NCBI GenBank assembly: GCA_034231615.1
Contig: CM067316.1
Location: 31,932,009 to 31,996,008 of the forward strand
From: Meghimatium bilineatum
Taxonomy: Eukaryota; Mollusca; Gastropoda; Stylommatophora; Philomycidae
DNA: 64,000 bases
Reading direction: 5' to 3'
Below the pieces are notes generated by a model. It ran no database searches, had not been told where the DNA came from, and saw only the letters and a list, made by a program, of their open reading frames with translations. Of the stretch, positions 4,513 to 34,500 are shown piece by piece. Positions within the stretch are counted from its first letter, which is position 1. Every line of letters begins with the position of its first letter. Made by a program: the position numbers and the translations under genes.

Positions 4513-7500
4513 CTGTATGAATAAACCAAAATGAACAAATGTCAAGTACTAAAATAGCTTACAAAATCAAAAGCTGTCAACAAGCAGGCATTACATGAAC
4601 AGAACAAATGTGATTGAAAAACATCATTTTAAATAAGCAATTTGGGTAATCCCTTTAACACTTTACTGACCAGCAATCAGAGCATGTTTATCTCCACTTA
4701 TCAAGGGTATTTGCAAATGTTTTAGACATTGATAATGCCATGTTTAAAAATCTGTATATCATCAAACTCACATCATAGAGAATTGAAATTTTCTATGTGT
4801 AATAACGAAAATGGCCCACAGCAACAGATATCCACAGAAAGCTGTATGGGAGCCTTGAGCTTTTAAATGCAGCAGCATTTATCAAGAAAACTAGACTTGC
4901 TGTGTAGACATGCTAACTGCAAACAAGAAGATAATCTGCCTATCATGCAAGGGATGTACAAAGAATAGATTATAAGTAATAACAGTAGATGTAAAAGGAT
5001 GTAAGAAACACAAATAAGCAAACCATTATAAAACTTGGCATATAGAATGCAAGGACCACATGCCCCTGACTCCCCAATGATAAACTTGCACAGGGTGATA
5101 AGATAAGAAAACAGAGTCATCACTGATGATGAGCTCAATAGCTTGCAGGTGGGTGTTGTTGCTAAACTATAAGACCAGTGTTTCTCAACATGTTGTCTTT
5201 GCACAAGGGAAAATCTAAATGTTTTGAAGACAACTTTTTACTGTTTTTAATTTGACATACTTATTTACATTATATTACATTTTTAGATCTTAGTTGGTGT
5301 TAGTAAAGTGGACTTCATTGGCTTTTATTTTAGTAAGTGAATTTGGTTGATTGTTATGCTAATAAGAGAATTGGTTGATTGTTATAATAGTAAGATAATT
5401 TGGTTGACTGTTATTCTAATAAGAGAACTTGGTTAATTGTTATGCTAGTAAGATAATTTGGTTGACTGTCCCTACCTTCTTTGGTGCCCTTCTCTCCAGC
5501 ACCCTCTTCCTATGTCTCGCTATATCAGCCCGATACTATCTCACAACGTGCTTCCCCGCATTAGTCCTTTACCATCCCCTGCTGTGTCCTCCCTGTGTCC
5601 TCCGGGCTCCCTCCAACCCGCACTTTACTTTCTTGCGTGACGTATCTCCGTCTCAAGGCTTCCGTAGATCCATCATGTACTTTCTTGTTTTTTTTCTCTC
5701 TTTCTTTCTTTGTCTCTTTCTTTCTCCTTTTCTTTTTCTTCCTTTTCTTTTCCCTCTTTTATTTTCTACCTCTGCATTTTTCTCATACTCTGTCATCTTT
5801 TCAGCTTTCTCTATGGCTATTTTGGTGTAGTCATGGTTCACAACCACCCCCCCCCCCTCTTAGTTGTTCGACATAAGCCCCTGTACTCTCATCAGTTGGT
5901 GTTCGCTGTGTCCCATTTTTCCTCCAGGCTATTGTCTTTTCCATTGTTCTCCCTTTCACAGGTGTGTTTTATTTTCACTTTGGCGCCTCGGGTACAGTCT
6001 ATTACTGTGGCATGTCTGTATTTTTCTAACCTGTACAAACCTGTACAAATTTTTTACTTTGTAGCCATAATGTGTGTGATCATCCAGATGGAAGGAACTG
6101 TGACCAGTCGCTGCATCAGTTAAGTTATTGCACTATTTTATTCTCATATATCACCATTATCTGCTCATATTCTCTTCCTGCTGTTTGCTCTTTCTCTTCT
6201 GTTCCGCCTTTTTTGGCCTCTTTCTCCCCTTTCTCTCTCTCCCACCTGATCCCTCATACCATCTCATTTTGCTCTTCCCTTACATTATGATTGCTTGTCT
6301 TTAGCATTCATTCTCTGTTGCAACTTTTGAGGTAAGTATTTTTAATGTACTTTTAATTTACTTGCTAAGATAATTTGGTTGACTGTTATTCTAATAAGAG
6401 AGCTTGGTTGATTGTTATGTTAGTATGAGAACTTGGTTGATTGCTATACTAGTATGAGAACATGGTTGATTGTTATGCTAGTATGAGAATTTGGTTGACT
6501 ATTATGTTAGTAAATTGGTGTAGATCAACAGTTATGTTTTTCTGCTTGCCGATAGCCTAGTTTTGGAGAGGATTTGGGCTCCATTAAGTAAAACCATACC
6601 CATAGAAATGTTACACTGGAATATCAACACAATATGACATGTAATAAGATAGGACTTTCTCTAAAATTAGTTTGCAAGGAACAGTCGAGAGTGGATGGAA
6701 AAGAGGACAGAGAAAATCCTGGATTGATAAAATCCTGGATTGATAAAATCAAGGGATGGTCTAGGCGTGATATTTCTATACTTCTACAAATGACTAAGGA
6801 CAGAGCTGTTTGGGGGGCATTTTGTACTGATGTGTGGCACACCTACGACCTTGATGGGTTATGAGTCTCATTATTATTATTCTTGTCTTATCCATGTGTG
6901 CTGCGAGGCGTCATGGGGAACAGAAGTCTTCTTTCTTTTGCTGTGATGCTGCTGCCATAGTGCAGTGTTGGTGTTCTAGTATTTCTCAAATGTCATCTAT
7001 CCATCTTTGTCTGGGTCTTTCCGTTTATCTTTTCAGATACCGTTTATCTTTTCAGATACATTTTATTGAAGGTTCTTGATGGAATGCAATCTGGTTCGAT
7101 TATGATTAGGTGGCTGAATCATTTGATTATTATACTAGTAAGCAAAATTGGTTGATTGGTATTTTAGTAAGAGAACTTGGTGGACTGTTATGCAGATAAG
7201 AAAATTTGGTGGATTATTATAAACAAGAACTTGGTTGGCTATTATGCAAAGAAGGAAACTTGGATGACTGTTATGCTAGGAAGGGAACATGATTGAGTAT
7301 TATGCTAGGAAGAGAACATGATTGAGTATTATGCTAGGAAGGGAACATGATTGAGTATTATGCTAGGAAGAGAACTTGGATGACTGTTATGCTAGGAAGG
7401 GAACATGATTGAGTATTATGCTAGGAAGAGAACATGATTGAGTATTATGCTAGGAAGGGAACATGATTGAGTATTATGCTAGGAAGAGAACTTGGATGAC

Positions 7501-10500
7501 TGTTATGCTAGGAAGGGAACATGATTGAGTATTATGCTAGGAAGAGAACGTGATTGACTATTATGCTAGGAAAAGAACATGATTGAGTATTATGCTAGGA
7601 AGAGAACATGATTGAGTATTATGCTAGGAAAAGAACATGATTGAGTATTATGCTAGGAAGGGAACATGATTGAGTATTATGCTAGGAAAAGAACATGATT
7701 GACTATTATGCTAGGAAGAGAACATGATTGAGTATTATGCTAGGAAGAGAACATGATTGACTATTATGCTAGGAAAAGAACATGATTGACTATTATGCTA
7801 GGAAGAGAGCTTGGTTGACTTATGCAAGGAAGAGATTTGACTGACTATTAACCTGTAGCAGCCAGCTAAAAATAGTGCATATTGCGCCTGACACCCAACC
7901 ATTTTTTATGACTTCTGGTTTTTCTGCATGTGTTTGCTTTTTTTGCGTAACATTTTTATTTATTGAGTTATTGATTTCCAATTTGGAGACAATAGAGATA
8001 AATGGATGCTGGATATGATTTGGAGGTGTTATTTGCTTGCATGTGTCAGTGTTATATTGTGTACAACAAAATCAAGAATGTGGACAAGCACACACAAAAA
8101 CTTAGCTCATCAAGATCACGCGTAGACCTAGTTATAGGAAACACTGCTCCTCAAATTCTTCATCATAAATTACATCACTATTACTATTAAATATTATAAA
8201 CATTTCTCTCAAACACCATACGTTGATATACAGTAACTGAAACACTAAAGCTTTAAAAGGTGTTCTTTTCTGAATCATAATCCATGAAGAAATAGCGAAA
8301 AATGGCAGCACCGAAGTTTGGCTTGTAAACGTGAAAGGTCGAATAAATTACACCTGCGTATATACGTATATCGCTGTGGAAAACCAAGGAACAATCACTC
8401 TAGCACACACTTACTATAAGAGCATGATGGAAATAAACATTGATGATTGTTGTCCATGACTTAATTCTTGATTAGAAACTGGCCTCACAGCATGTGGGGG
8501 CATTCCCATAAGTGCTCCGCCCTCTGTTACAGCAGCCATTCGACTCGATGGTGTTTCGAGTCTAATGCTGCCAAAACAGACGTCGACATCATGGCACAAC
8601 TCTGGCCCTTGCGACAGGTTTCTTTGTTGTTCCACCCACCCACGCCATGCCCATAACTTGTTCAAGCACAACATCAGCCTGACAGAACAACATGGTAACT
8701 GTTATCGAAGGTTATGACTACGGGATGTACATGACTATAAATGGCTACCTCAATGTAGAAATTTGTCGACAGTGGGTTTCTATCCCTAGATTAAATTTTT
8801 CAACTTCGGATTGCTAAAGGTTAAGCCAGGAAGGAACATGATTTACTATTATGCTAGGAAGGGAACTTTATTGACTATTATGCTAGGAAGGGAACTTGAT
8901 TGACTATTATTCTAGGAAGAGAACTTTGTTTGCTATTATGCTAGAAAGGGAACTTAGTTGACTGTTAAGCTATGAGGGGAGAAATATTAATATTTATTAG
9001 GTATATTAAATATACAAAAATTTCAAACAATGCTAACTTAACAATTTTAATATAGAAATTTAGTTTCATAATTCTTACCAAATTTTCAATAAATTGTGGC
9101 CGATTGATTCTGATCTGCTTAACAGTCTGGTACACATCCACCTCATAGTCCAGTTCTAGACGTTCTAGGAGCAGGCTCATGGCCACAAACACTCCACTCT
9201 TGCTAGCTCCATTCCTAACAAAATGCAAACTATTTAAATAAATTGGACTTTATTTATCCACATGTGGATTAACTGTTTGCATTGCACCACTACACCATAC
9301 AAAACATATGTTGAAAAGAAAAGTTTTACATGAGAATAGTACTACAGGAATCATCAAATGTATGAGCACATGATTGCTTTTGCATAGACAATTTATAAGC
9401 AGGCTAACTTAAAGTCAAAGGCTCCATTCTTCTATTGGAGCAAAGCAAGAAGAAACTAGTTTGCTGACAAAAACATTAAAATCTCCATGATTGAGGTAAG
9501 TGCACCTCTTAATACAGAATGTACACAAAAATGTTCTTTCTTTTGTTTGTTATATGTCTACTTTATTTTGTTTGCTATATGTCTACACTGTCAGACAAGT
9601 ATTCTGGAAGAACTCTTTGGTTATCTGGGTTTCTTTGGTTCCATAATTATTTGGTTACACTATGTCTTTCCCAGTTGTTCATAATGGTAACAGTTCTGCA
9701 GGATATGCTCAGAGTTCTGTTAATCTGTTTAGCAAGTGTACAGCTTCTGTCCTCAACAAGGACCTTAAGTTCATCCCTTTCCGCCCTGCATATGATCAAT
9801 ACTAAAATCTTCAAGACATCCACTATTACCATCGTCATCTTCGTCTCTGTTATAATTTCTTTGGCAAAGAACCATCTGATACTGACATTTGTTCTCTGGA
9901 TATGAGAAGAAATATTCATGGACAGGCTCACAGGTTCTTGATCTTTACATCAAGAATATTCTCTATGATATTCAATCACATCATCACAACCGCATCAGAC
10001 GCTCCAATGTCACTCTTGCTGAATCATGCGCATCTTCATAGGCATGAAATTCTTGAGACTAACGGAAATTTAACCAGTCTGATCTAATGGCCCCAAATCA
10101 CCTGGTAACTCGAGTAAACGGGTTTTTCCGTACTTGACTAATGATAATGAAGTACAATTCTCATCTTTCTGCTTGCTTTGATGTTTAGTTTGCTTCTTAT
10201 ATGCAAGAATTCAACACCGTTGAGAACCCACAGAACAGATGTGAAGATGACCATTTGTTGACACTCAGAGATGGACTTCAGAGCAGATTGTTCTATTGCT
10301 TCAACAGTATACTTGAAGCAGAATTTTTCCAGCTCTCCAAGAAGAACATATTTACACATCTTGATCATGAATTTAAGAAATTACTGTCTAAAACACTGTA
10401 CACATTATTTATTCTCAGAGGGAACAATCTAAATAAGTCAAGCTAATACATACATGCAATGTACTGTGATAGGGCCCTTGCTATTTTGTCGAAGCCATTC

Positions 10501-16500: not shown

Positions 16501-19500
16501 TTAACGGCAAGTGTGGATATTCTGACTATCATCCACATGGGGATAGACAATGAACCATTCCGTACCAGGTGTCACATGCTTTGTATGACTTTCCTCTTTT
16601 CAGTCTGCTAGCTTTCATAATCTGAATTTCAGCTGTGATTTGTAGATAGGCTTGTGCTCTGCAATTAACTATATTCTGTGCTTTGTAACTGGACAGTTGA
16701 GTAAAATTTCATGGCTTCTACTGGTATATCATTAGTACACCAGAGTATAATATGTATCGCTTCATTCTGTATCTTATCCAATCTTTCAGTCTGCAACTGG
16801 ATGAAATCTGATGTTCTGTGCAACAATAGCATTCCAATGTCATCATGCTTGTCTTTATCAGTCTTATAATATATTCATTCATTCATTCATTTTCCTTCTG
16901 CGCTGAAGTTAGCGCATAGGGCAGAGGTCAGATCTCTCCAATTCTGTATGTTCAAAGCTATTCTGTGCAGTTCTTGAATAGTATGAATATTGGTTGTTTT
17001 ACTTTCTCGAGGTATTGTTCTTCTGAGTGTTTCTTTTGGTATACCCCTTGCCATTTTGCAAGAGATTGGTGGTGTGTTCTGTTGGTTTCTGCGTGAAGGA
17101 CATGCCCGATGTAGGACCAACGGCGTTTTCTGATAACATCAGTGATGAAATTTTGATGTGTCCCTTCTCTGATTTTATCACTTATAATATATAGCACGTG
17201 GTTATATATCATTTGAACATTATAAAATGTATAAATTGAAGTAAGAGTTTAAAGAGAGACTAGAAACCACAGTACTATACCTTGTCATTTCTGTCAAACT
17301 CATTCAGCATGACAATTGTGTCAGATGTTGTGTCATACAACATTCGCCAGAAGTCTGCAACAGTTGTGGGTAGAGGCATTTGTGTAACCAGAAACTGGTC
17401 CTTCTGAGTGTAGCCCTACCAAATTGAAGGCAAATATGTACTGCAGAATATAATGGCTTACAAGCACATGCATATACTATATCATGACACTGGGTTGAAA
17501 GGCATGTGCTCAAGTCCACTGGATGAACAACCAACTAACCAAAAATATAATTATATTTAAGTAATTTGCATATCTTCTTCTTCAGTGTTAACTCTCAAAC
17601 TCCCACCAGATCTCTCTTGTAGCAGGAAAACAATCCTACTTAGATACACAGCCTGATGTAGTCCAGAGAATAAATCTCATAAACAATTTATTTTTTAATT
17701 TGGCACCCTCACGCCTTTTGGGCTTAACTCCAAACATTCATTTGTTTAAATTTGTGTTGGTGTGATCATTATTGTATTGCTATCCATGTTGTATATGGTA
17801 ATAATTTGTTATATCTGTTGTCATATCCCATCCAATTTTCAACAAAACTCACTTCCATGACTACATGTTTCCACATAAATCATTGTCACCTTGAACTTGT
17901 ATTGTTTACATGTTAATAGCATATCTAGGGCACACAAGATGTGTGCCATGTCTGCCAAATTTGGAAGGACATGTAGGATCATCACATCCTGAATTGGATG
18001 GTTTTGCCTCAGGTTTCCCCTTCTCCATTTGGTTTCTGGGTGCCAGTTCGACATACAATATCAAACTAATGAGATCTTGAAAGTCAGGGTCACAGGACTT
18101 TAGGTTCTATGATGGAGTGCAATGCCACTAGTTGAACGGCCCTCTACTCCGGAGGGAATGATTGACAACAGGACATTGCGACATAAAAACATATTACTAT
18201 AAAGATAGAATGTTGGTGACGTTTTCATACAAAAAAGTCTCACTATAGTCACATAATCTTCTAGAAAAATAATTGTTTGGTGGTTGGCCTAGTGGCTACT
18301 GGAGGTTGCCACCCGACCTTCCGTATGCTAGTAGGAGGGCCTGGCCAGTCTTAGTTTCCAGCCTCTGATGATTGGACTAAGCCCCATCTCCACAGCAAAG
18401 AGCTGGCTTTGATGGTGTGGTTTATTAAAATAATATACTTAACTTACTGACAAGTAAACAGCATTAATATAATCATTGCAACCCTCCACTGGTGTGTACA
18501 AGTAAGGGCGACTGCGATTTGCTGAAATTAGACAACAAAAATAATTGATATAAACAAACATTACTTCACAATCACATTAACAATTTTATTGAAAGAACTG
18601 TGGTTGCACACACAAGGTAATATCATTTTTTTTTTTAAATTAATTTCAAATTCTACACAAATGTTGACATCCATTTGTTGTTTGCTCTATTAGGAGCATA
18701 GTGGGGTGCAAATGGAACGCAATGCTCTAGGCGGACCCAGGGTTAGCAGATAACCAAGATCCCAAATGTACCTCCTCGTGGTGCACCCTGGTAACAGAAA
18801 ACAGCAGCTCGAGCTGTTTCTGGCCAAATCATTTGGGGATCGTGTCCGAGAATGTGGAGGAAGCAGATGGAAATAGATTTGACTGCAAAAGAGACAGACA
18901 ATATCTCCGACACCATTTGCATCACCATATACAGCGACACTGTTGACATACAGTGACGCCTATTAGTCCAGTCAGAACATTGGAGGGCACATAAAGGTGG
19001 TTGCATGGAGAGACACAAATATATGTCATAATTAGTACAATGACACAATGAAAGGGCAGAACAGCGCCAGAGGGAAGCGCGAACTGCAAATAGAAAGTGA
19101 AAAGTTCCTAGGAAAGGGGAACTGTAAGCTCTGTTAGTTCAAGACAAGCTTCTAGTTACCTGTGATCCTTATAAGCAGAGACCCAGATCCAATCGTGGGC
19201 ACTCGGAAAAGCAAGAAGACCTAAACCAACTCTAATGTCGAGCCTTCCTATACCGGAAATATGCTCGTGAAGAGAAAGGGTTCCGAACACGATGGGCTTA
19301 GGCAAGAAGGGGACAACGATGACAGCCCTGGCCCAACTCTACTGTCAAGATTTCCTATACCGGAAATACACTTGCAGAGAGAAAGGGTTCAGTACCTGAT
19401 GGGCTCAGGCACAAAAGGGACGATTTAGCCCTGGCCCAACTCTATTGTCAAGCTTTCCTATACCGGAAATACACTTGCAGAAAGAAAGGGTTCAGTACCT

Positions 19501-22500: not shown

Positions 22501-25500
22501 TCTGTTGTTTTTCCATGTTTTTCAAACGTGTTATTTTACAATATACCATTGCTAATCTCTTCCTTATTTCTGCCACACATTCTCTTGCACCGTTGATGTT
22601 TGCTCCTAAGTATTCAAATTTATCCACACACTCTATCTTGGTAATGTTTATTCTGATTTTTGATTGTTGTGTTTACAGAAATACTGTTTACATTAATTTT
22701 TGTTATTTGCGCATTAATATATACGTTTTGTGATTCGCTGTATTTCTTTGTGTCATCATCTTCACTATCTCACACACAAAAAATTGGTAGTATCCTATTA
22801 AGGACGTAGCCATCAACCCAGCATTCTTTGGCTGCAGTGATTTTCTAGGCAATATAAATATGTTCAGTAGTTTCCCATTGCTTTTGGAATGGTCCAGATG
22901 CACAACAGCCTGTGGCGGGGATCAAACTCTGGCCGTCACAGACGTGCTCTGTACCATTCCGCCACAAAACCGGACCCACTATCTCAGTTAAGCTCAATTG
23001 GTCTTCATCGAATCTGACAGACAAACAACAAATTATAAACCAAATAAAATAATAAGACTTCCATAAGTCTCACAGCACATATTCTTACCTGGCAAAATAT
23101 TTTTAAATCTGTTTTTAGCCATGTTTTCCTCCTGTAAAGACACAGAACATTCCTCCCTTTCTATGGTAGGAGACAGTCGTTGCAGAACCTGCAACAAGAC
23201 AAGTCACAATTAACAGTCACAGTTGATAATATATGATTATGAAGTATTAGAAAACTCATATCAGAAGTGAGAATGTTTCCTTTCTTACTAACTTCCCTTC
23301 TCTAGCTCAATGAATCATGTAGCTGGTTCAACGAAGCATGCTAAGCTTAGGCTTTTTGCAGTATTTTCATGATAAACTGGCAGTTTCACAGAAGTGTGGC
23401 TGTAGTCTTAAATAATTTTGTCAATGTGATATCTTGGACTTATGGGTCTGCTTCTCAAGATGCAGCAACCCTGGTTTCAAATATGTGGTGTAGAAGCTGC
23501 CATTTTTCCTCATACAAGTCATGCTTTAATTTCATGTTTCGCACTTGAAGTAGCCTATAGTTTGTATTCTGGTGATACTGCACTGTAACATGGTATATCA
23601 GGGGTTGGCAATCTAAAGCCTGTGGTCCAGACCATACATGCCTGTCCAAATTGCAAAGCCTAACAATCAGAAATTGTGACTGATAACCCATAATGTTCTG
23701 AAAAAATAATCCAAGTATTTATTTAGAGCTGGTCTAGGATCACATTACTGTATATTTCCATATATAAGCTAAGAATTTTTGTATTTTGTTCCGCTATTGA
23801 TGTATTGGGTTCATTTTGGTTTATATACACAACAAATTAATGTTTTAAATTAGCGGTCAAAACACAATAATATTATAAACAAAATAATGTAAATTACAGG
23901 TAACAGAGAAAACAAAATATCTGTACTGGTACAGCCATTGAAATCCTTTGAAGTCTGAATTCTGAAATAATTTATGAACTTCATTCTCTGTCATGGAAAC
24001 ATCAGAGCGGATATTGTCAGTCTCAGGTATATTGTCATCATTGGCATCATCCTGATTGATAATGTCATCCTCACTACCATCCATTGCATTACTAATGTCG
24101 AGCACTTTTTCAAAGATCGGACTATCATTTTGGATGAAATATCCTACCATGATTCTTTGACCCACTTAGTGATTGTGATGTGAACATTTTTTACGTTGCT
24201 AAATCACAGCTAAAATCACACCTTTGTCACAGCTAAATCTGATGATGCAATTTATTCATTCCATTTTGCTCTGAGTCTGACCTTACATTTTTTGTTACGG
24301 GAGACATCTAGAGGCTGTGAGAGGAAGGTAAGGCCCAGGAATTATAGATACAGGAATTACAACCCCATCTCACAGGATCATATTTCCACTTTGTCTGTGA
24401 TATGTTGCCTCTGTGATGTGGTGTCTGTTCATAAAATGATTGCACCACCCCATTGAAGCAACAAAGTCCACAGATTTTTGTGACTGGAATGCAGGATATT
24501 TTAATATGGTGAGTAACCTGATCTAAATATTTGTGCAGGTTACAATTAATCTGTTCTGCCTAGACTCCATTACCCATTCGGACAATTTCTCCTCCAGCGT
24601 ATGGAATGAGGGTGTACAGCCAGGTGATGCTTTCTTTGTCCTTCGCACCATAGATAATTCTTTCTTTTTTTCCATTCTGGTACTTGCTTTTCGTTCACAA
24701 TGAAGTGGCGGGCAGCCATCTAATTGTTGGACTTCTCCGAAAAAGCGATAACATCAAACTTAAAACACGCAGCATATAATGTTCTTTTATGTCCAGACAT
24801 CCTTCTCATAAAACATGAATAAAATCACTATAGTAATACAAATTTAAGAACTGAAAGCTTAAACTGCTTGTGTGGTATTCTTAAATTAGACACATTTTTT
24901 TTTTTTTTTCATCTCATTTACTGGTGTTGTTTTTCATGCCAATGCTCATCTTCGCTTGCGAAAGAGGAACATCATCATCATCATCATCATCATCATATAT
25001 ATATATATATATACACACCGTAGGCTCTACTGCATTATACAGCGCTATACTACTTGAATTTGGTACCACAGTACCAGATTCACTTAGAAGACTATGGTGG
25101 GTAAGACTATGAAAGTGCAAGTTTAGAAAGCTCTTTGAATGTCATGGCTGACGTTATCTGATATTTGTCAAGCTAAAAGTTGAACATTCATTAACCTACA
25201 GTAATATTTAAATATATGTTACGGTCGGTAATGGCTGACTGATAAATTCTGATTGAATGAATGATTCGGATAGCAATGGAACACTGCTGTTTCCTGATGG
25301 TTAGAGTTTTATGACTGCTGGCAATGCCTCCTGGGAAAGGCTGCACTGTATTATCTTTGATGTATTTTGTGTGAGTGGGGCAAATAAAAGAGATGATCTT
25401 GCGTCTTTACTTTTACCATTGCTAAAGATTAGGTTAATTACCTTTCAGCATTATTTTGCTTGTCCCTTCATTCTTATAATAATCGGTTTTCACAGTATTA

Positions 25501-28500
25501 TTACCAGTATAATTATTGTTTCCTACCTCGGCCTATACACGCATTTTCAACTTTTGTGACATTTTAGATAATTAAAGTTACATTCTCTTCTATAAACGGT
25601 TTGTCTTATATTCAGCAATATTCTGTACTTTGTATTAATATGTCTGCACCTAAAAATAGGCTATATATATGTAAATTTCCATAAATTAAAAACAAATTGT
25701 AATGAATATTTAGTAATATTGATACATTTTGGAAACTAACTACCATGTTCCTTTGCAGTTTAGGTTGACACTTTTTACTACTGGTCCCTTCTATAATTCA
25801 GTATATAATTTTTAGCTCAATATTACCTACATATTACTTATAACAAATAACGTGTAACTAAGCTTTCATGTTAGCTGTGTTCTCACCTGGTCCACCTCCA
25901 GTTGTGTATGCATTTATCTTGCCCTCTGGCCATAAAACATAGCACCCCCTGCCCCCACACATTGTCCATTATGCATGATGGTCTTCAGTATTCATTCTCC
26001 TCTTCCTCTTCTTTTGCGTTCATTTTCTTCTTCCTCTTCTTTTGTGTTCATTCTCTTCTTCCTCTTCTTCTGCTTTCATTCTTTTCTTCCTCTTCCTCTG
26101 TGTTCATTTTTTTCTTCCTCTTCTTCTGCATTAATTCTATTCTTTCTCTTCTTCTGTGCTCATTCTCTTCTTCCTCTTCTACATTCTCTTTTTTCTACAT
26201 TAATGCTTTTCTTCCTTGCGAGATCATTCTCTTCTTCCTCTTCTTCTGCATTAATTCTTTTCTTCCTCTTCTGCGTTCGTTCTCTTCTTCCTCTTCTGCA
26301 TTCATTTTCTTCCTTCTTTTCTGTATTAATTTGCTTCTTCTGTGTTCATTCTCTTCTGTGTTCATTCTCTTCTTTCTCTTCTGTGTTCATTCTCTTCTGT
26401 GTTCATTCTCTTCTTTCTCTTCTGTGTGCATTCTCTTCTTTCTCTTCTGTGTTCATTCTCTTCTTTCTCTTCTGTGTTCATTCTTTTCTGTGTTCATTCT
26501 TTTCTGTGTTCATTCTCTTCTTTCTCTTCTGTGTTCATTCTCTTCTTTCTTTTCTGTGTTCATTCTCATCTTTCTTTTCTGTGTTCATTCTCTTCTTTCT
26601 CTTCTGTGTTCATTCTCTTCTTTCTTTTCTGTGTTCATTCTCTTCTGTGTTCATTCTTTTCTTCCTCTTCTGTGTTCGTTCTCTTCTTCCTCTTCTGCAT
26701 TCAATTTCTTCCTTCTTTTCTGTGTTCATTTGCTTCTTCTGTGTTCATTCTCTTCTTTCTTTTCTGTGTTCATTCTCTTCTTTCTTTTCTGTGTTCATTC
26801 TCTTCTTTCTCTTCTGTGTTCATTCTCTTCTTTCTCTTCTGTGTTCATTCTTTTCTGTGTTCATTCTCTTCTTTCTTTTCTGTGTTCATTTTCTTCTTTC
26901 TCTTCTGTGTTCATTCTCTTCTTTCTTTTCTGTGTTCATTTGCTTCTTCTGCATTCATTTTCTTCTTCCTCTTCTTTTGTGTTCATTCTCTTCTTCCTCT
27001 TCTTCCGCTTTCATTCTTTTCTTCTTCTTCCTCTGTGTTCATTTTCTTCGTCTTCTTCTGCATTAATTCTATTCTTTCTCTTCTTCTGTGCTCATTCTCT
27101 TCTTCCTCTTCTACATTCTCTTTTTCTACATTAATTCTCTTCTTCCTCTTCTTCCGCTTTCATTCTTTTCTTCCTCTTCCTCCGTGTTCATTTTCTTCGT
27201 CTTCTTCTGCATTAATTCTATTTTTTCTCTTCTTCTGTGCTCATTCTCTTCTTCCTCTTCTACATTCTCTTTTTTCTACATTAATTCTTTTCTTCCTCTT
27301 CTTCCGCTTTCATTCTTTTCTTCCTCTTCCTCTGTGTTCATTTTCTTTGTCTTCTTCTGCATTAATTCTATTCTTTCTCTTCTTCTGTGCTCATTCTCTT
27401 CTTCCTCTTCTACATTCTCTTTTTTCTACATTAATTCTTTTCTTCCTCTTCTTCCGCTTTCATTCTTTTCTTCCTCTTCCTCTGTGTTCATTTTCTTTGT
27501 CTTCTTCTGCATTAATTCTATTCTTTCTCTTCTTCTGTGCTCATTCTCTTCTTCCTCTTCTACATTCTCTTTTTTCTACATTAATTCTTTTCTTCCTCGC
27601 GAGATCATTCTCTTCTTCCTCTTCTACATTCAATTTCTTCTTTCTTTTCTGTGTTCATTTGCTTCTTCTGCATTCATTCTCTTCTTTCTCTTCTTCTGCG
27701 CTCATTTTCTTCTTCCTCTTCTGCATTCATTCTTTTGTTCCTCTTCTCTGACCATTCTCTTCTCTATCTTCTGCATTCATTCCCTTCTTCCTCTTCTACT
27801 TTTTTCTTCGTCTTCTGCATTTACACACAATATTCTGAAATTAGCAAAATGTAGTACAGAGCATAGAATGTGTTGTAACATGGTTTACAACTTGGCTGTG
27901 ATATTTGTGCCTTTTGATCTGACACATCTGGTTTCAGCATGGCTTCAATTTACTTTGACCTATTCAGTGGGATAGCCAATTCCACTCCCTCCCAAACCTT
28001 GTTAGTTGCATGGCAGGTCACAGTATTGTTATTCTTTACTCCCTTTTAAACCACGCAAGCCCACATGTGTATCCCTCCCTAACCAAGCTAACTAGCTACC
28101 CTATAGCAGTTGCATCTACTGTTACAGTTGGATTCATATATTACACCAGTTAGGTACACTGTTACAATTGAGTCCACTTAAGTGTGTCTAACCTGCAGAA
28201 GGATTCATGTCTATTCAACTACAAAGTAAATACTCTTTATAATATGGTAATGGTAGGGGGGAGGGGATTGAGTGGAAGGAATGGAAATTGCTGAATACAA
28301 GTGATGTAATGTTTTATAAATGCTCACCTCATGCTGCTTCTCCATGGATGATTTCTCATCAAGTGATGTGATGTTTTATATATGTTCACCTCATGCTGAT
28401 TATACATGGATGATTTCTCACCAAGTGATGTGATGTTTTATATATCCTTACCTCATGCTGCTTCTCCATGGATGATTTCTCACCATCTTCCTGTGATAAC

Positions 28501-31500
28501 ATCTCTTCATATGTACTGTGGAAACTGGAGCGAGGTATAGTAGTGTTGCCTGCCATAATAGCCTCCAAGACAGCATCATATACAAAAACATACTGCTCCT
28601 GGGATGTAAGGACAATCATATATGTATATAAAATATGCATTATAACAATCAGTGTAAGCAGACAGAATATCCACTTGTGAATATTGTGGATATCAAACTT
28701 TAACTGATAAACGATCATAATAGATGTCAGAAGTCAAGTTTTAAGATGGTAAAGTAGCTTGTGAAAACAATTTTCTGGTGCTCACAAAGCATGCTCACTA
28801 AAAATTAAGTCTGTTCAGTACAAAATTGGAACATTATAAGTTAGACAAGGATGTCAACTTATTTTTTGTTTTTGTTTGATCTCATTTTATTTCCGCTAGC
28901 ACCTACTGGTGACATCTAGGATATCTCATTTTTTTCATACATGAACTCTCCCACATTGTTTCAGGGGTCTCAAGTTCTTGCTCAACTTTGGCAAAAAGGT
29001 ACTACTGTCATCAACCCTGTCAACACTGTAATATGCTTGCTTTGTGGCATAACAACCTTAAGATAATCATCATCATCTAGTGACGTCTCGTCAACAAAGG
29101 TTGGCTGCAACAGAACTCCAACATTCCCTGTCACTTGCTTTAGTGGTGCACTCTGCTAAACTGTAACATGTTCATCTTGTGATGTTACTCTCCCACTTGT
29201 ATCTCTGTCTACCTCTTGCTCTCTTCCCTTTGACTCTATCTTCCAGTAAGGTTTTCAACAATGTATCATGTCTTTTAATGTGTCCAGAATATTTTATTTG
29301 CCTGTCTTTATTTCCTTTAATAGTTCTTTCTTCATATTAAGTGTTGTTAGAACCTCTTTGTGTGTTTTCTTCTCTTTCCATGATGTTCTCCCTATTCTTC
29401 TATATATCCACATCTCAAAGCCATCAATTATGTCTTCAATTATTGTTTTTTAAGTGCCCATGTTTCTGAACCATACATTAATATAGAATAGATGTAGCAT
29501 TTTATAATTCTCATTTTTAACTTGTTAGTAATTTGTTTAGATGTTAATATTTTCTTCATGTCATTGAAAGTACTTTTAGCCATTCCTATTCTCCTTTTAA
29601 CTTCTGTTTCACATCTGCAGTCACTTGTGAATATGTGTCCAAGATATTGATAATGTTCTACTTGTTGTAGTTTCTCTTCATATAAGTTTATGTTTAGCAC
29701 ATGTTCTTCTGTGACTTTGCTGATTATCATAGTTTTAAGATAACAGATGACATAGATGTCATCTAGTATGGATTTTTCATATTGATACAGATTTACAGCA
29801 GTGTGCATCTCACATACACATATTGATAGGCCATACATAAATTTAATGCCGATGGCAGTATCAAACTCAGAATGAAAAAAGTTCAAGCATGATACATGGA
29901 TACAGGCATGTTAACATTGGGTAGGTTCCTTGCAGAGTGGATTCAACTTTACACAGGCATTGTCAAAACATGTAAAGTTGGATCCATTCAATGCATGTTT
30001 ATTGTAAAATCTGCCAGATTAAAATTGTGATTTTAAACCAAACAATAGAAAAAAAAATAAAAAAAATATTGAACTACATTTTTCATATCTGCTTCAAAAT
30101 TAAAAACACTAAACTCTGATCCTAGCGTACCACTCTACTGCATGCTTTGATTTTATAACATTTTGTTTCTAGAACTCACTCTTCAATTACATTTTTCTTG
30201 TATTTCTTAGAGAGTATTATCTTTGGTTTTTTTATTTTATTTCTCATGCAGTTATAGTTATATGTTCTGCCTATATTATTTCTCATAATAGCACCTAATA
30301 GAGCTGCTGTTAGTGACAATCCTGTTTCTAAATTAAAGTGTATCATATCCTACTCAGGACAAAGCCATCAAACCAGCATTTTTTGGATGTAGTGATTTTT
30401 TATGAAATATAGATATGTTCAATAGTTTGCCATTGATTGGTGAAAGGTCCAGATTCACTATTGCCTGTGGCAGGATTCAAACCAGATACCTTGAACATCA
30501 TTGCAGTGCTTCTCTGCCACGCCACCACAGGGCTGGATGTTTCTAAACTGTCTAAAGTTTAAGTTTATGTTAAGTTTTAAGTTTTTGTGTTAATTTCTAA
30601 ACTGTCCTTAGTTTATTGCTTTTGGATCAATTTTACTCAATTTTTACCATAGTAGTCACCTATAGGCATAATTAAATCAATTAGCAATTTTTAAGTACAA
30701 TTATCATTGTGCATACAGAACTCTCAGTATATTTCCAGTACACAGGCCTACCTTTCTTGCAGAAAGCGAAACAAAAATTACAAGGGTTAGGCAAATCTGT
30801 GTTCCTCATTTTTTTCAACAATAACTTCCCTTGGCTATAATTATCCATCATTGGGTGGTTGCAGGAATATTTATTTAGCTAAAGACTGGAAAATATAGAT
30901 ATTTTTTAGAAGTGTTGTATGGGTGGAAAAAGATATTTTTATGTGGGTTGTATTGGTAGGAAAAGACTGGAGTTAGGGTAAAGCAGGTGGACAGTATCAG
31001 CTAATTTCCTCTAGTATGGCATAGAACGGGTTTACATTGTTCTGCAGCCTAGATCGTCACATGAACACGGCCAGGTAAATTTTCATGTGGTGCTGTGTTG
31101 TTTCACAGTGTTTCTTGTTCTGCCACTTGACATTTTCCTACATTCATTCAACTGTTTAAGTGTGTTCCCGATATCTGGATCCCCAAAATTGTACCTGTGG
31201 TTCACCATTAGGTGCCAGATCTCTCAATCTTGGTCATTTGGTACTCTCTCCAGCAGTCAGGGTATATAGTGGACCCTGGCTCAACATTGTCAACTACTGC
31301 TCTCAGTGGGGTGTTGGTTCATCTGTTCTTCACCGGCAGCATGAAGACCTCATAGTCTAATGATATAGACCTCCAAATATCCACCGCTGAAGTAAAACTC
31401 AGGTTCGCCATTCACTTTGTGAATACCTAGTCAGCAGCTAGTAAATTAACAAACAAATATCAAGATCAATATCCTATGAAATGATTCAGCCACTTAATGA

Positions 31501-34500
31501 TAATGAACCTATATTAGCCAGCAGCACAAGCATACATTATGAGAATGGAAACATCAAATAAGAGGAAGTCCAAGAATAAGATGGATGGGAGAAGTTACAG
31601 AGCTCCTGAGACAGCACAATGTTACTGCATATCAACCGACCAAATGTCCTGAAAAATGATCATCATTCAATCCTAAAGAGCAAAAACAGAACAAAAACAA
31701 TAGATAGATACAAAGAATATCCCATTCATTAAATAGTGAGAAATCACTAATATTTTGTATTCTAACGTCTATTACAAAGTTGTACACTTACGAGAGTTTG
31801 AATCATGTTCACTCGGTTTGCTCGCATAAGTTGTGCACATCTTAGAACATCAACAACATTCTCAGCTGCAGCTTGTTCAAGAAGGTAGTTGAGTGCTATG
31901 AAAGTTCCAGTGCGCCCTATGCCAGCACTGCAAATGTAAATAGTCATAGTCAGATGCAGAAAATTATAAGTGACTGTTATCAGGAGTGAATTAAAAAACC
32001 ATTATTGTAATTGTTCTAAGCAATTAGCTGTCTTAATTGGTTCATTAAGAATGGCATAATGTCCAAGGCAGCTATTCTGTTTCTTACTTTCAACAGAATT
32101 GTTTTCTATGTACAGTGAAAATATATTGCAAGCAGTTGATGATATTTCAGGAACATCAGTGGCTGACTAGTGATTCTCTGAACCAACTGTAGCACAATCC
32201 AGGAAACCCCATACAAGTTCTGTCTCTTTCAGCAGATGGTGAAGGGTATGTATTTCTGATAGTTCCTACAGCACGTTGATTGTATATCTTCCTCATCCTA
32301 CCCCTTAATCATCCTCCTCTAATATCTCCCTGAGTAATTCCAAGTTTCTTTAATCTATTCTTTCAAGTGTACATCCCAGAGAAAGGCTTTATAACAGAGT
32401 ATAAATATCAAGTGACATATTCTTTCCAGAACATTGTCTTCATTGTGGATACTCTGAAAGCCTCTGAGAGAAACCTAAGATCAATAATGTCTCTAGACTT
32501 TAAATCTTTAATTAGAATATTCTTCTTCCGCATTCATTCTTAAACTCCTGCAGATTATTAGGATGTAGTCCAGAGAACATAATGTGCTGTGTCATGGTTT
32601 ACACTTTCCTACGATATCTACAGCCTGATACATCTGACTTCAGAATGGTTTCAGGGTCACAGTGACCCTATATGGGACGAGACGGCCAACTCCACCCCAT
32701 AACATCCTTAGTCACCTCTTACATATAAGATAAATAGTGCTGCTATTCGTTCCTTCCTTTTTGAGCCACGGAAATACAAGGGTGGTAATTAATTAGAATA
32801 TTAATTAATGTCTAGAATCATATTTTTTTGTATAGATAACGCTGCCCATCAGTGCATGCACATGCTAGTAAAGTATACAAAACATGAGAAAATAAACTGG
32901 ATACTATAATGTATTTTGAAAATCTAATATAGTGTGACATCACACAGAGCAACTAATTCTCTAGTCTAAACTAATTCTCAACTCAAGTTTTTCTGTCTTA
33001 AATAGAATTTATCCCCATTTAGGCCACTCCTTGAAGTGGAAATGGGGTTTAGTCCAGCCAACAGAGACTGAAAACTAAGATTAGTCAGGCCAACCCTGAC
33101 ATTGAGCAGGATCAAAGTCCTGCCCAAGCAAGCAGTGGTGCTGAGGTCTGAGATATCAGGCAGTGAGGCACACCAGCAACCATGATATCATGCAACACAA
33201 CTAAGTACGTCTTCATAACAAAACAATATAAATTACTGTATGTTAGATTATATCTATCTATACGCTGTGGCCCTTGTTTGCCCTGCGGCGTCAGGGGTGG
33301 AAGAGTTCTCTGGAGATGGCCTTCGTGTGTGCTGTTTGTAAGCTTGTTCCTATGGCTTCTTTAATTTCTGTGATACATCTTTTACATGGTCTGCCTCTGG
33401 CTTTATAACCGTCTGGAAACGTGTGAAAACCACTTGATCTGTTGTCTTTTGATGGGTTCCAATACTGGTATTGTTTTGGTTATCTGTCTGATGTTATCGT
33501 TTCTAATTCTATCTCTTAATGACACTCTGAGTATTCTTCGTAGACATGTCATTTCTGTTGTCACTATTTTTCTTATAGTGATGGAATAATAATAGTCTTG
33601 TATAATGCAACTTTAGTGTCTATTTTTACATTTTTGTTCTTGAAAATATGTGTCATCTGTCCTAGGATCTGGTATGTTTTGTTGCATCTATTTTGTACCT
33701 CTTTACTGGTTTTCCCTTCACTCGTTATAATGCTTCCTAAGTAGGTGAACTCATTTACCTGTTTAAGGTGTTTATCATCGATGGAGATTGTGGTATTTCT
33801 TTCTTTCTTTGCTATTGCCATTATTTCGGTCTTTTAAATATTGATCTTCATGTTGAATTTTTGACATGTTGTGTGGAGTCTGTTCATAGTATGTTACATT
33901 GAAGGAAATAATGCGCCACAAGTTTTGCTGAATTTGAGCTAAACGTATAAAGGCAACTTCAGAAATTAAAATTGCATATATTTAAATTTATATTTTAAAA
34001 AAGGACATGAGAATGCTGTCTTGATGCACAACTCAGCTAAGGTCTAATAATGAAATTGAAGAGGTCCAGGCATACTAAACTGAATAAAAGTAATGCATGT
34101 CTAAACTGAAATGAACAAGTGTCTACATGTCCTAATTTACAAAATATATGTTGCTACATTATCTATATTGGCATGCTTGTGGGATTAAGCAAATGAAATA
34201 ACCATTAAAATTTATACAGAATATGGTGCTAGGGCCATATTTTTCATTGGTTGGTGTACTCTAGAAACAAAATATCAAGCTAGTCGCTTTTATTTTCTAA
34301 GATTTGGTTTGGTACTCATTTTCTTACAATGGGTTGACCCAGATGTCGTTCAATGGTGAAATAAATATCCACAACTGGAAAATGATCCTGGACCACTGTG
34401 TTAGGATGTCACTAACCACAGCACTACCGGGATTCCAGAGTAGACTAAAGTCACCTAAATTATGCATAATTATCTAATATGTCAGAAAGAAGTGTAGAAG

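Follow-up and report, generated by a model that had tools for sequence, protein, structure and literature searches.

The donor splice site of one exon in a receptor phosphatase gene is present three times in tandem in the window (the whole stretch of 64,000 nucleotides that was analysed), and this array is very probably a neutral 'mirage' in the amphioxus sense, with the first donor being the one that is used. By a mirage we mean a short, minisatellite-like tandem duplication that includes an exon-intron boundary by chance. Slippage or unequal exchange would have generated the copies, donor 1 would act as the productive donor, and splicing from donor 2 or 3 would place a stop early in the mRNA and expose it to degradation, while the extra copies would be tolerated and would drift. 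The exon and donor 1 are intact and in frame, and donors 2 and 3 lie within the intron.

Running TRF on the window, we obtained an array at 28298-28485 with a period of 62, 3.0 copies, 89% match, 0% indels and a score of 313. Reading the minus strand (28484-28299), we found that the 62-bp unit consists of the last 33 nt of the exon and the first 29 nt of the intron and occurs three times head to tail (Table 1), and thus both approaches agree with the first-pass annotation, which had reported this tandem triplication and a separate GT donor in each copy (gtaagg, gtgaac and gtgagc). The splice signal is retained as a GT donor in 3/3 copies. Pairwise, the copies differ at 6/62 (1 versus 2), 5/62 (1 versus 3) and 7/62 (2 versus 3) positions, i.e., they are 89-92% identical and 8-11% diverged, which makes the earlier description of the distal copies as nearly identical, and hence recent, an overstatement; nothing in our analysis points to the duplication being maintained, as had been offered as the other option. 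Copy 1 carries two private substitutions, both intronic (+3 and +6), copy 2 carries four (three in the exon-derived part and one at +5) and copy 3 carries three. Units 1 and 2 open with an additional donor-like GT (ATG|GTGAGA at 28483 and TTG|GTGAGA at 28421), which copy 3 lacks, reading GATGAG there (G to A); splicing from the site at 28483 would remove 32 nt from the exon and put it out of frame.

The private substitutions of each copy (two, four and three) are unlike the false expansion of one copy, and it is accordingly a slim prospect that the animal carries a single copy that was rendered as three in the assembly. Short arrays are prone to misassembly, and excerpts of PMC3087553 describe a published amphioxus mirage whose assembly in a draft genome was aberrant, but with copies that differ at 5-7 of 62 positions an assembly artefact is unlikely; copy number between individuals may still vary. 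As a repeat, the 62-bp array is far beyond chance, yet the genome is very rich in such arrays. A DNA search of the same genome with the array, which skips very common words, returned a single match, and an Rfam scan of the window gave no match at the gathering score. Elsewhere in the window, a 1.8-kb minisatellite, pyrimidine-rich on the plus strand (25991-27797), lies about 500 bp past the donor array and within its intron, and several arrays at 5331, 6375, 7168-7835 and 8821 (span 5331-8980) share a related, TTATGCTAGGAAG-like 29/58-bp unit.

Table 1. Exons of the phosphatase gene, copies of the 62-bp unit, and splice-site arrays found elsewhere in the genome.
Feature	Position	Strand	Description
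Exon with the array (exon 12 of the first-pass annotation)	28452..28598	-	End of D1 and start of the D1-D2 linker, EQYVFVYDAVLEAIMAGNTT...MEKQHE
Copy 1	28423..28484	-	Donor GAG|GTAAGG, GT at 28451; in frame
Copy 2	28361..28422	-	Donor GAG|GTGAAC, GT at 28389; weaker; +62 nt, out of frame
Copy 3	28299..28360	-	Donor GAG|GTGAGC, GT at 28327; strength like donor 1; +124 nt, in-frame TGA included
Next exon	23090..23188	-	VLQRLSPTIEREECSVSLQEENMAKNRFKNILP; acceptor TTGTTGCAG; donor CAG|GTAAGA; read from sequence
D1 catalytic exon	31810..31926	-	...SAGIGRTG..., active-site C and R retained; PF00102 1.3e-8
D2 exon	17281..17415	-	GYTQKDQFLVTQMPLPTTVADFWRM...; PF00102 1.9e-12
D2 P-loop exon	9082..9213	-	HCMNGASKSG with the preceding exon; CX5R arginine replaced by K; PF00102 1.3e-7
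Donor array L030			54-bp unit; six donors TCT|GTAAGA in the fetched stretch, the array reaching its end (at least six)
Donor array L042			52 bp x 3.0; 100% match (TRF)
Donor array L031			50 bp x 2.0; 86% match (TRF)
Donor array L024	474, 608, 672 of the oriented stretch (donors)		Downstream 64-bp array, 95%
Donor array L104, into L128	C21:5035974-5036517	-	Last 46 nt of a kinesin exon plus one G recurring, in 47-bp units
Acceptor array L050	C22:5439501-5440250		Phosphatase exon acceptor x6; 53-bp units of 28 nt intron and 25 nt exon, 98% match

The gene with the array lies on the minus strand of the window and, with two PF00102 domains and a CX5R motif in D1, is predicted to encode a receptor tyrosine phosphatase. 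Upon scanning the neighbouring candidate exons for PF00102, we obtained matches at E <= 0.01 in 5/5, with 4/5 past the cut-off. For the exon 28598-28452 itself, phmmer against the PDB gave PTPRZ (8.2e-6), PTPRG (1.2e-5) and PTPRS (9.4e-5) as the best relatives, and scanning the longer ORF around it with Pfam reported no PF00102. The assignment of the array to the end of D1 in a receptor phosphatase gene, made at first pass, is supported. In D1, the active site is split by an intron (HC|SAGIGRTG) and CX5R is intact. D2 is likewise split (HCMNGASKSG), and it is predicted to be inactive because a K replaces the CX5R arginine.

We found that only donor 1 is in frame with the exon at 23188, which begins in phase 0 after TTGTTGCAG, because neither 62 nor 124 is divisible by 3, as the first-pass annotation had likewise stated. 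Past donor 1, the frame stays open for 21 codons up to a TGA, the end of which lies at 66 nt, just beyond donor 2. Joining donor 2 to 23188 gives ...SMRFCNDCLLP* as read from the sequence, with a TAG ten codons past the junction, and the donor 3 product takes in the TGA that lies in the frame past donor 1. Decay is expected of an mRNA whose stop comes early, with introns still ahead of it. More exons lie downstream of the predicted stops from donors 2 and 3, and nonsense-mediated decay would be expected for both mRNAs because the stop precedes several further introns. Scored with a matrix of approximate frequencies, donors 1, 2 and 3 reach 11.4, 7.0 and 11.6, with U1 duplex energies of -10.1, -7.0 and -9.7. 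That donor 3 matches donor 1 by matrix, and nearly so by U1 pairing, speaks against a neutral mirage with first-donor use, and the disuse of donor 3 is an assumption of that reading because the two sites are about equally strong.

The strength of donor 3 and the early stops from both distal donors would also suit regulated unproductive splicing, in which the distal donors act as a switch that directs a fraction of the transcripts into decay, thereby setting the receptor level. We regard such a switch as improbable, given that there is no sign of conservation, that donor 2 is weakened at +5, that the closest paralog found (L085) is without the copies, and that the other donor arrays likewise reach early stops, as random intron sequence would: an early stop occurs within 18-66 nt past donor 1 in 6/6 donor arrays (that of the window and five elsewhere). 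The paralog emerged from a search of the same genome, which holds at least 136 PF00102 matches; at E <= 10, the exon 28598-28452 had four matches there, itself included. The closest paralogous exon found, L085, is 43% identical and ends in phase 0 at the corresponding boundary, where one donor, GAG|gtttgt, is present. Because L085 has one donor, the window array appears to have arisen after the split from the L085 gene or to have been lost in the latter. The L085 intron contains a separate 30-bp array that starts about 135 bp in. Among the other phosphatase loci, three adjacent, very similar and uninterrupted two-domain ORFs of 1141-1143 aa (L002 and L003; C9:17730951-17759216) look like intronless copies, unlike the exon-split phosphatase genes.

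The first-pass annotation had proposed instead that the distal donors yield a shortened receptor in which D1 is kept and D2 is missing. Donors 2 and 3 do change the frame, and D1 is complete upstream of the array with its C and R retained, while D2 is without the P-loop arginine, and a receptor lacking D2 would therefore still have its active domain. Yet the stops precede several more introns and decay is expected, meaning that a D1-only receptor would be possible only if its mRNA escaped decay, and no isoform lacking D2 was found in the accessible portion of PMC11215419; we consider this outcome very unlikely. Least probable of all is recursive splicing, where each 62-nt unit would be excised as a small intron (GT...AG|GT) and all routes would lead to the same mRNA. 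The geometry fits, with every copy ending in GAG|GT, and the kinesin array L104 has better signals, but on a rough matrix by which eight real acceptors of the window gene score 1.8 to 5.4, the two acceptor-like ends of the window array reach -7.2 and -10.9, compared to -0.3 to 2.9 for three such ends in L104. With strong 5' sites and such acceptor-like ends, the window array does not seem to offer an AGGT duplicate that supplies both splice sites, as intron gain would have it. The neutral mirage, with donor 1 in use, is the reading that we retain.

To place the array in its genomic background, we used a random sample of twenty 10-kb stretches (L004-L023, one per contig 1-20, at positions fixed beforehand and containing 2477 N). 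These held 101 arrays of period 20 or more, covering 26.3% of 200 kb, and the sampled genome is thus exceptionally rich in tandem arrays of 20-150 bp. The window, with 11 such arrays and 5.8% coverage, is poorer in them than the random samples, which counts against the mirage reading, as does the unevenness of the duplicated-donor sample described below.

We examined 60 phosphatase exons of three exon types, chosen from the match list blind to their surroundings, and 40 kinesin exons, of which 11 without a clear donor and 10 without a clear acceptor were left out of the respective counts. The 60 include two near-identical copies (L034 and L035) and some that are presumably of non-receptor type; two donors (L039 and L082) and nine acceptors were set by hand before the phosphatase count, and the L078 site may be wrong. 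A junction was scored as duplicated when a 24-mer across it recurred at most 350 bp away with at most 4 mismatches within the fetched flank, the flanks of about 200-350 bp limiting the distance at which a second copy is visible. By this test, 5/89 donors (60 phosphatase and 29 kinesin) were duplicated, namely L024, L030, L031 and L042 (4/60) and L104 (1/29), with an uneven distribution of four in the first 20 phosphatase exons and none in the next 40. The same test scored 14/89 intron positions at +60, 13/89 at +100 and 13/88 at +150 (Fisher p versus donors of 0.050, 0.080 and 0.050, respectively), and 0/89 in the exon interior at -50. In the window gene, 1/12 donors tested (the array donor) and 0/9 acceptors tested were duplicated. 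The automatic count of acceptors gave 3/90 (L050 and L074 of 60, L111 of 30), of which L050 alone was kept because L074 and L111 rested on weak 4-mismatch matches; at L114, an array stops 2 nt short of the exon. We considered a bias of duplication toward donors over acceptors and do not claim one.

A donor hot spot was rejected, as duplication is less frequent at donors than in the intron 60-150 bp further on. We also rejected minisatellites seeded by donors, since 94 repeat units from the random sample were without a clear excess of donor motifs (4 observed versus 3.2 in shuffled units at score 9, and 3 versus 1.6 at score 10). The simplest reading is that arrays arise anywhere and that splice sites are sometimes straddled, and that the duplicated donors (five, versus 13-14 at intron positions and none in exons) are a spill-over of this general process, with coding sequence purged. 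The rate of about one donor in 20 rests on five cases and two domain families, and we offer it as a lead, not as a genome-wide estimate.

The five donor duplications outside the window have TRF matches of 95-100% in four cases and 86% in one (L031). In the kinesin array L104, eight CAG or TAG|GTAAG donors follow each other at a spacing of 47 nt with scores of 10.4-12.4, and the units resemble complete small introns made of exon sequence, most of them with GCTAAC, a short pyrimidine run and CAG; further AG|GTGA sites occur in the intron after the eight-donor row. Counted over these cases, the phosphatase genes have rows of 2, 3, 3 and at least 6 donors, the kinesin gene has one of 8, and the acceptor of another phosphatase gene is present 6 times.

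The apparent frequency of such arrays is more interesting than the single array, as together they form a natural series of competing and nearly identical splice sites, with two to eight donors in tandem, for the study of donor choice, which also bears on how often tandem duplication seeds introns. We only tentatively entertain the broader proposal that mirages extend beyond cephalochordates, with about one donor in 20 duplicated in this genome, rows of as many as eight strong donors (kinesin L104-L128) and the first one still chosen. If true, donor choice would need a rule beyond site strength, and such genomes would be natural breeding grounds for new introns and for sites of recursive splicing. 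A literature search on competing duplicated donors gave no match at the set threshold.

The class of array is already known, and by itself the window array is one more mirage. In a human interferon-induced gene, a minisatellite reportedly supplies several donors (1995), and the window array is likewise a tandem repeat giving several putative donors. Minisatellite-size internal tandem repeats at exon-intron boundaries alter gene structure in human duplicated genes, where, in the accessible text of PMC2812944, the altered introns are backed by transcripts, whereas the window array was read from DNA. Tandem duplication of a stretch bearing AG|GT is one model of intron gain (excerpts of PMC4974935); the window array differs from it by copying the donor of an existing intron with no new intron apparent, and the kinesin array L104 comes nearer to this model. 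The closest counterparts are the amphioxus mirages, described, in the available parts of PMC3087553 and PMC3902484, for the globins BflGb6 and BflGb9, Adh3 and troponin C, with similar repeats in PGBD5. Those are minisatellite-like copies across a 5' or 3' exon-intron boundary, with units of 10 bp to about 160 bp, that keep the splice signals in many copies, include imperfect copies, and reportedly leave regular splicing undisturbed; they show length variation and somatic instability, and may provide a route of intron gain (same excerpts). Like them, the window array has three head-to-tail 62-bp copies across an exon-intron boundary and keeps the splice signals in 3/3 copies, and in the same genome several genes and both boundaries are hit (donors L024, L030, L031, L042 and L104; acceptor L050). 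It differs from the amphioxus cases in concerning other genes and another genome (1.61 Gb), as represented by one assembly.
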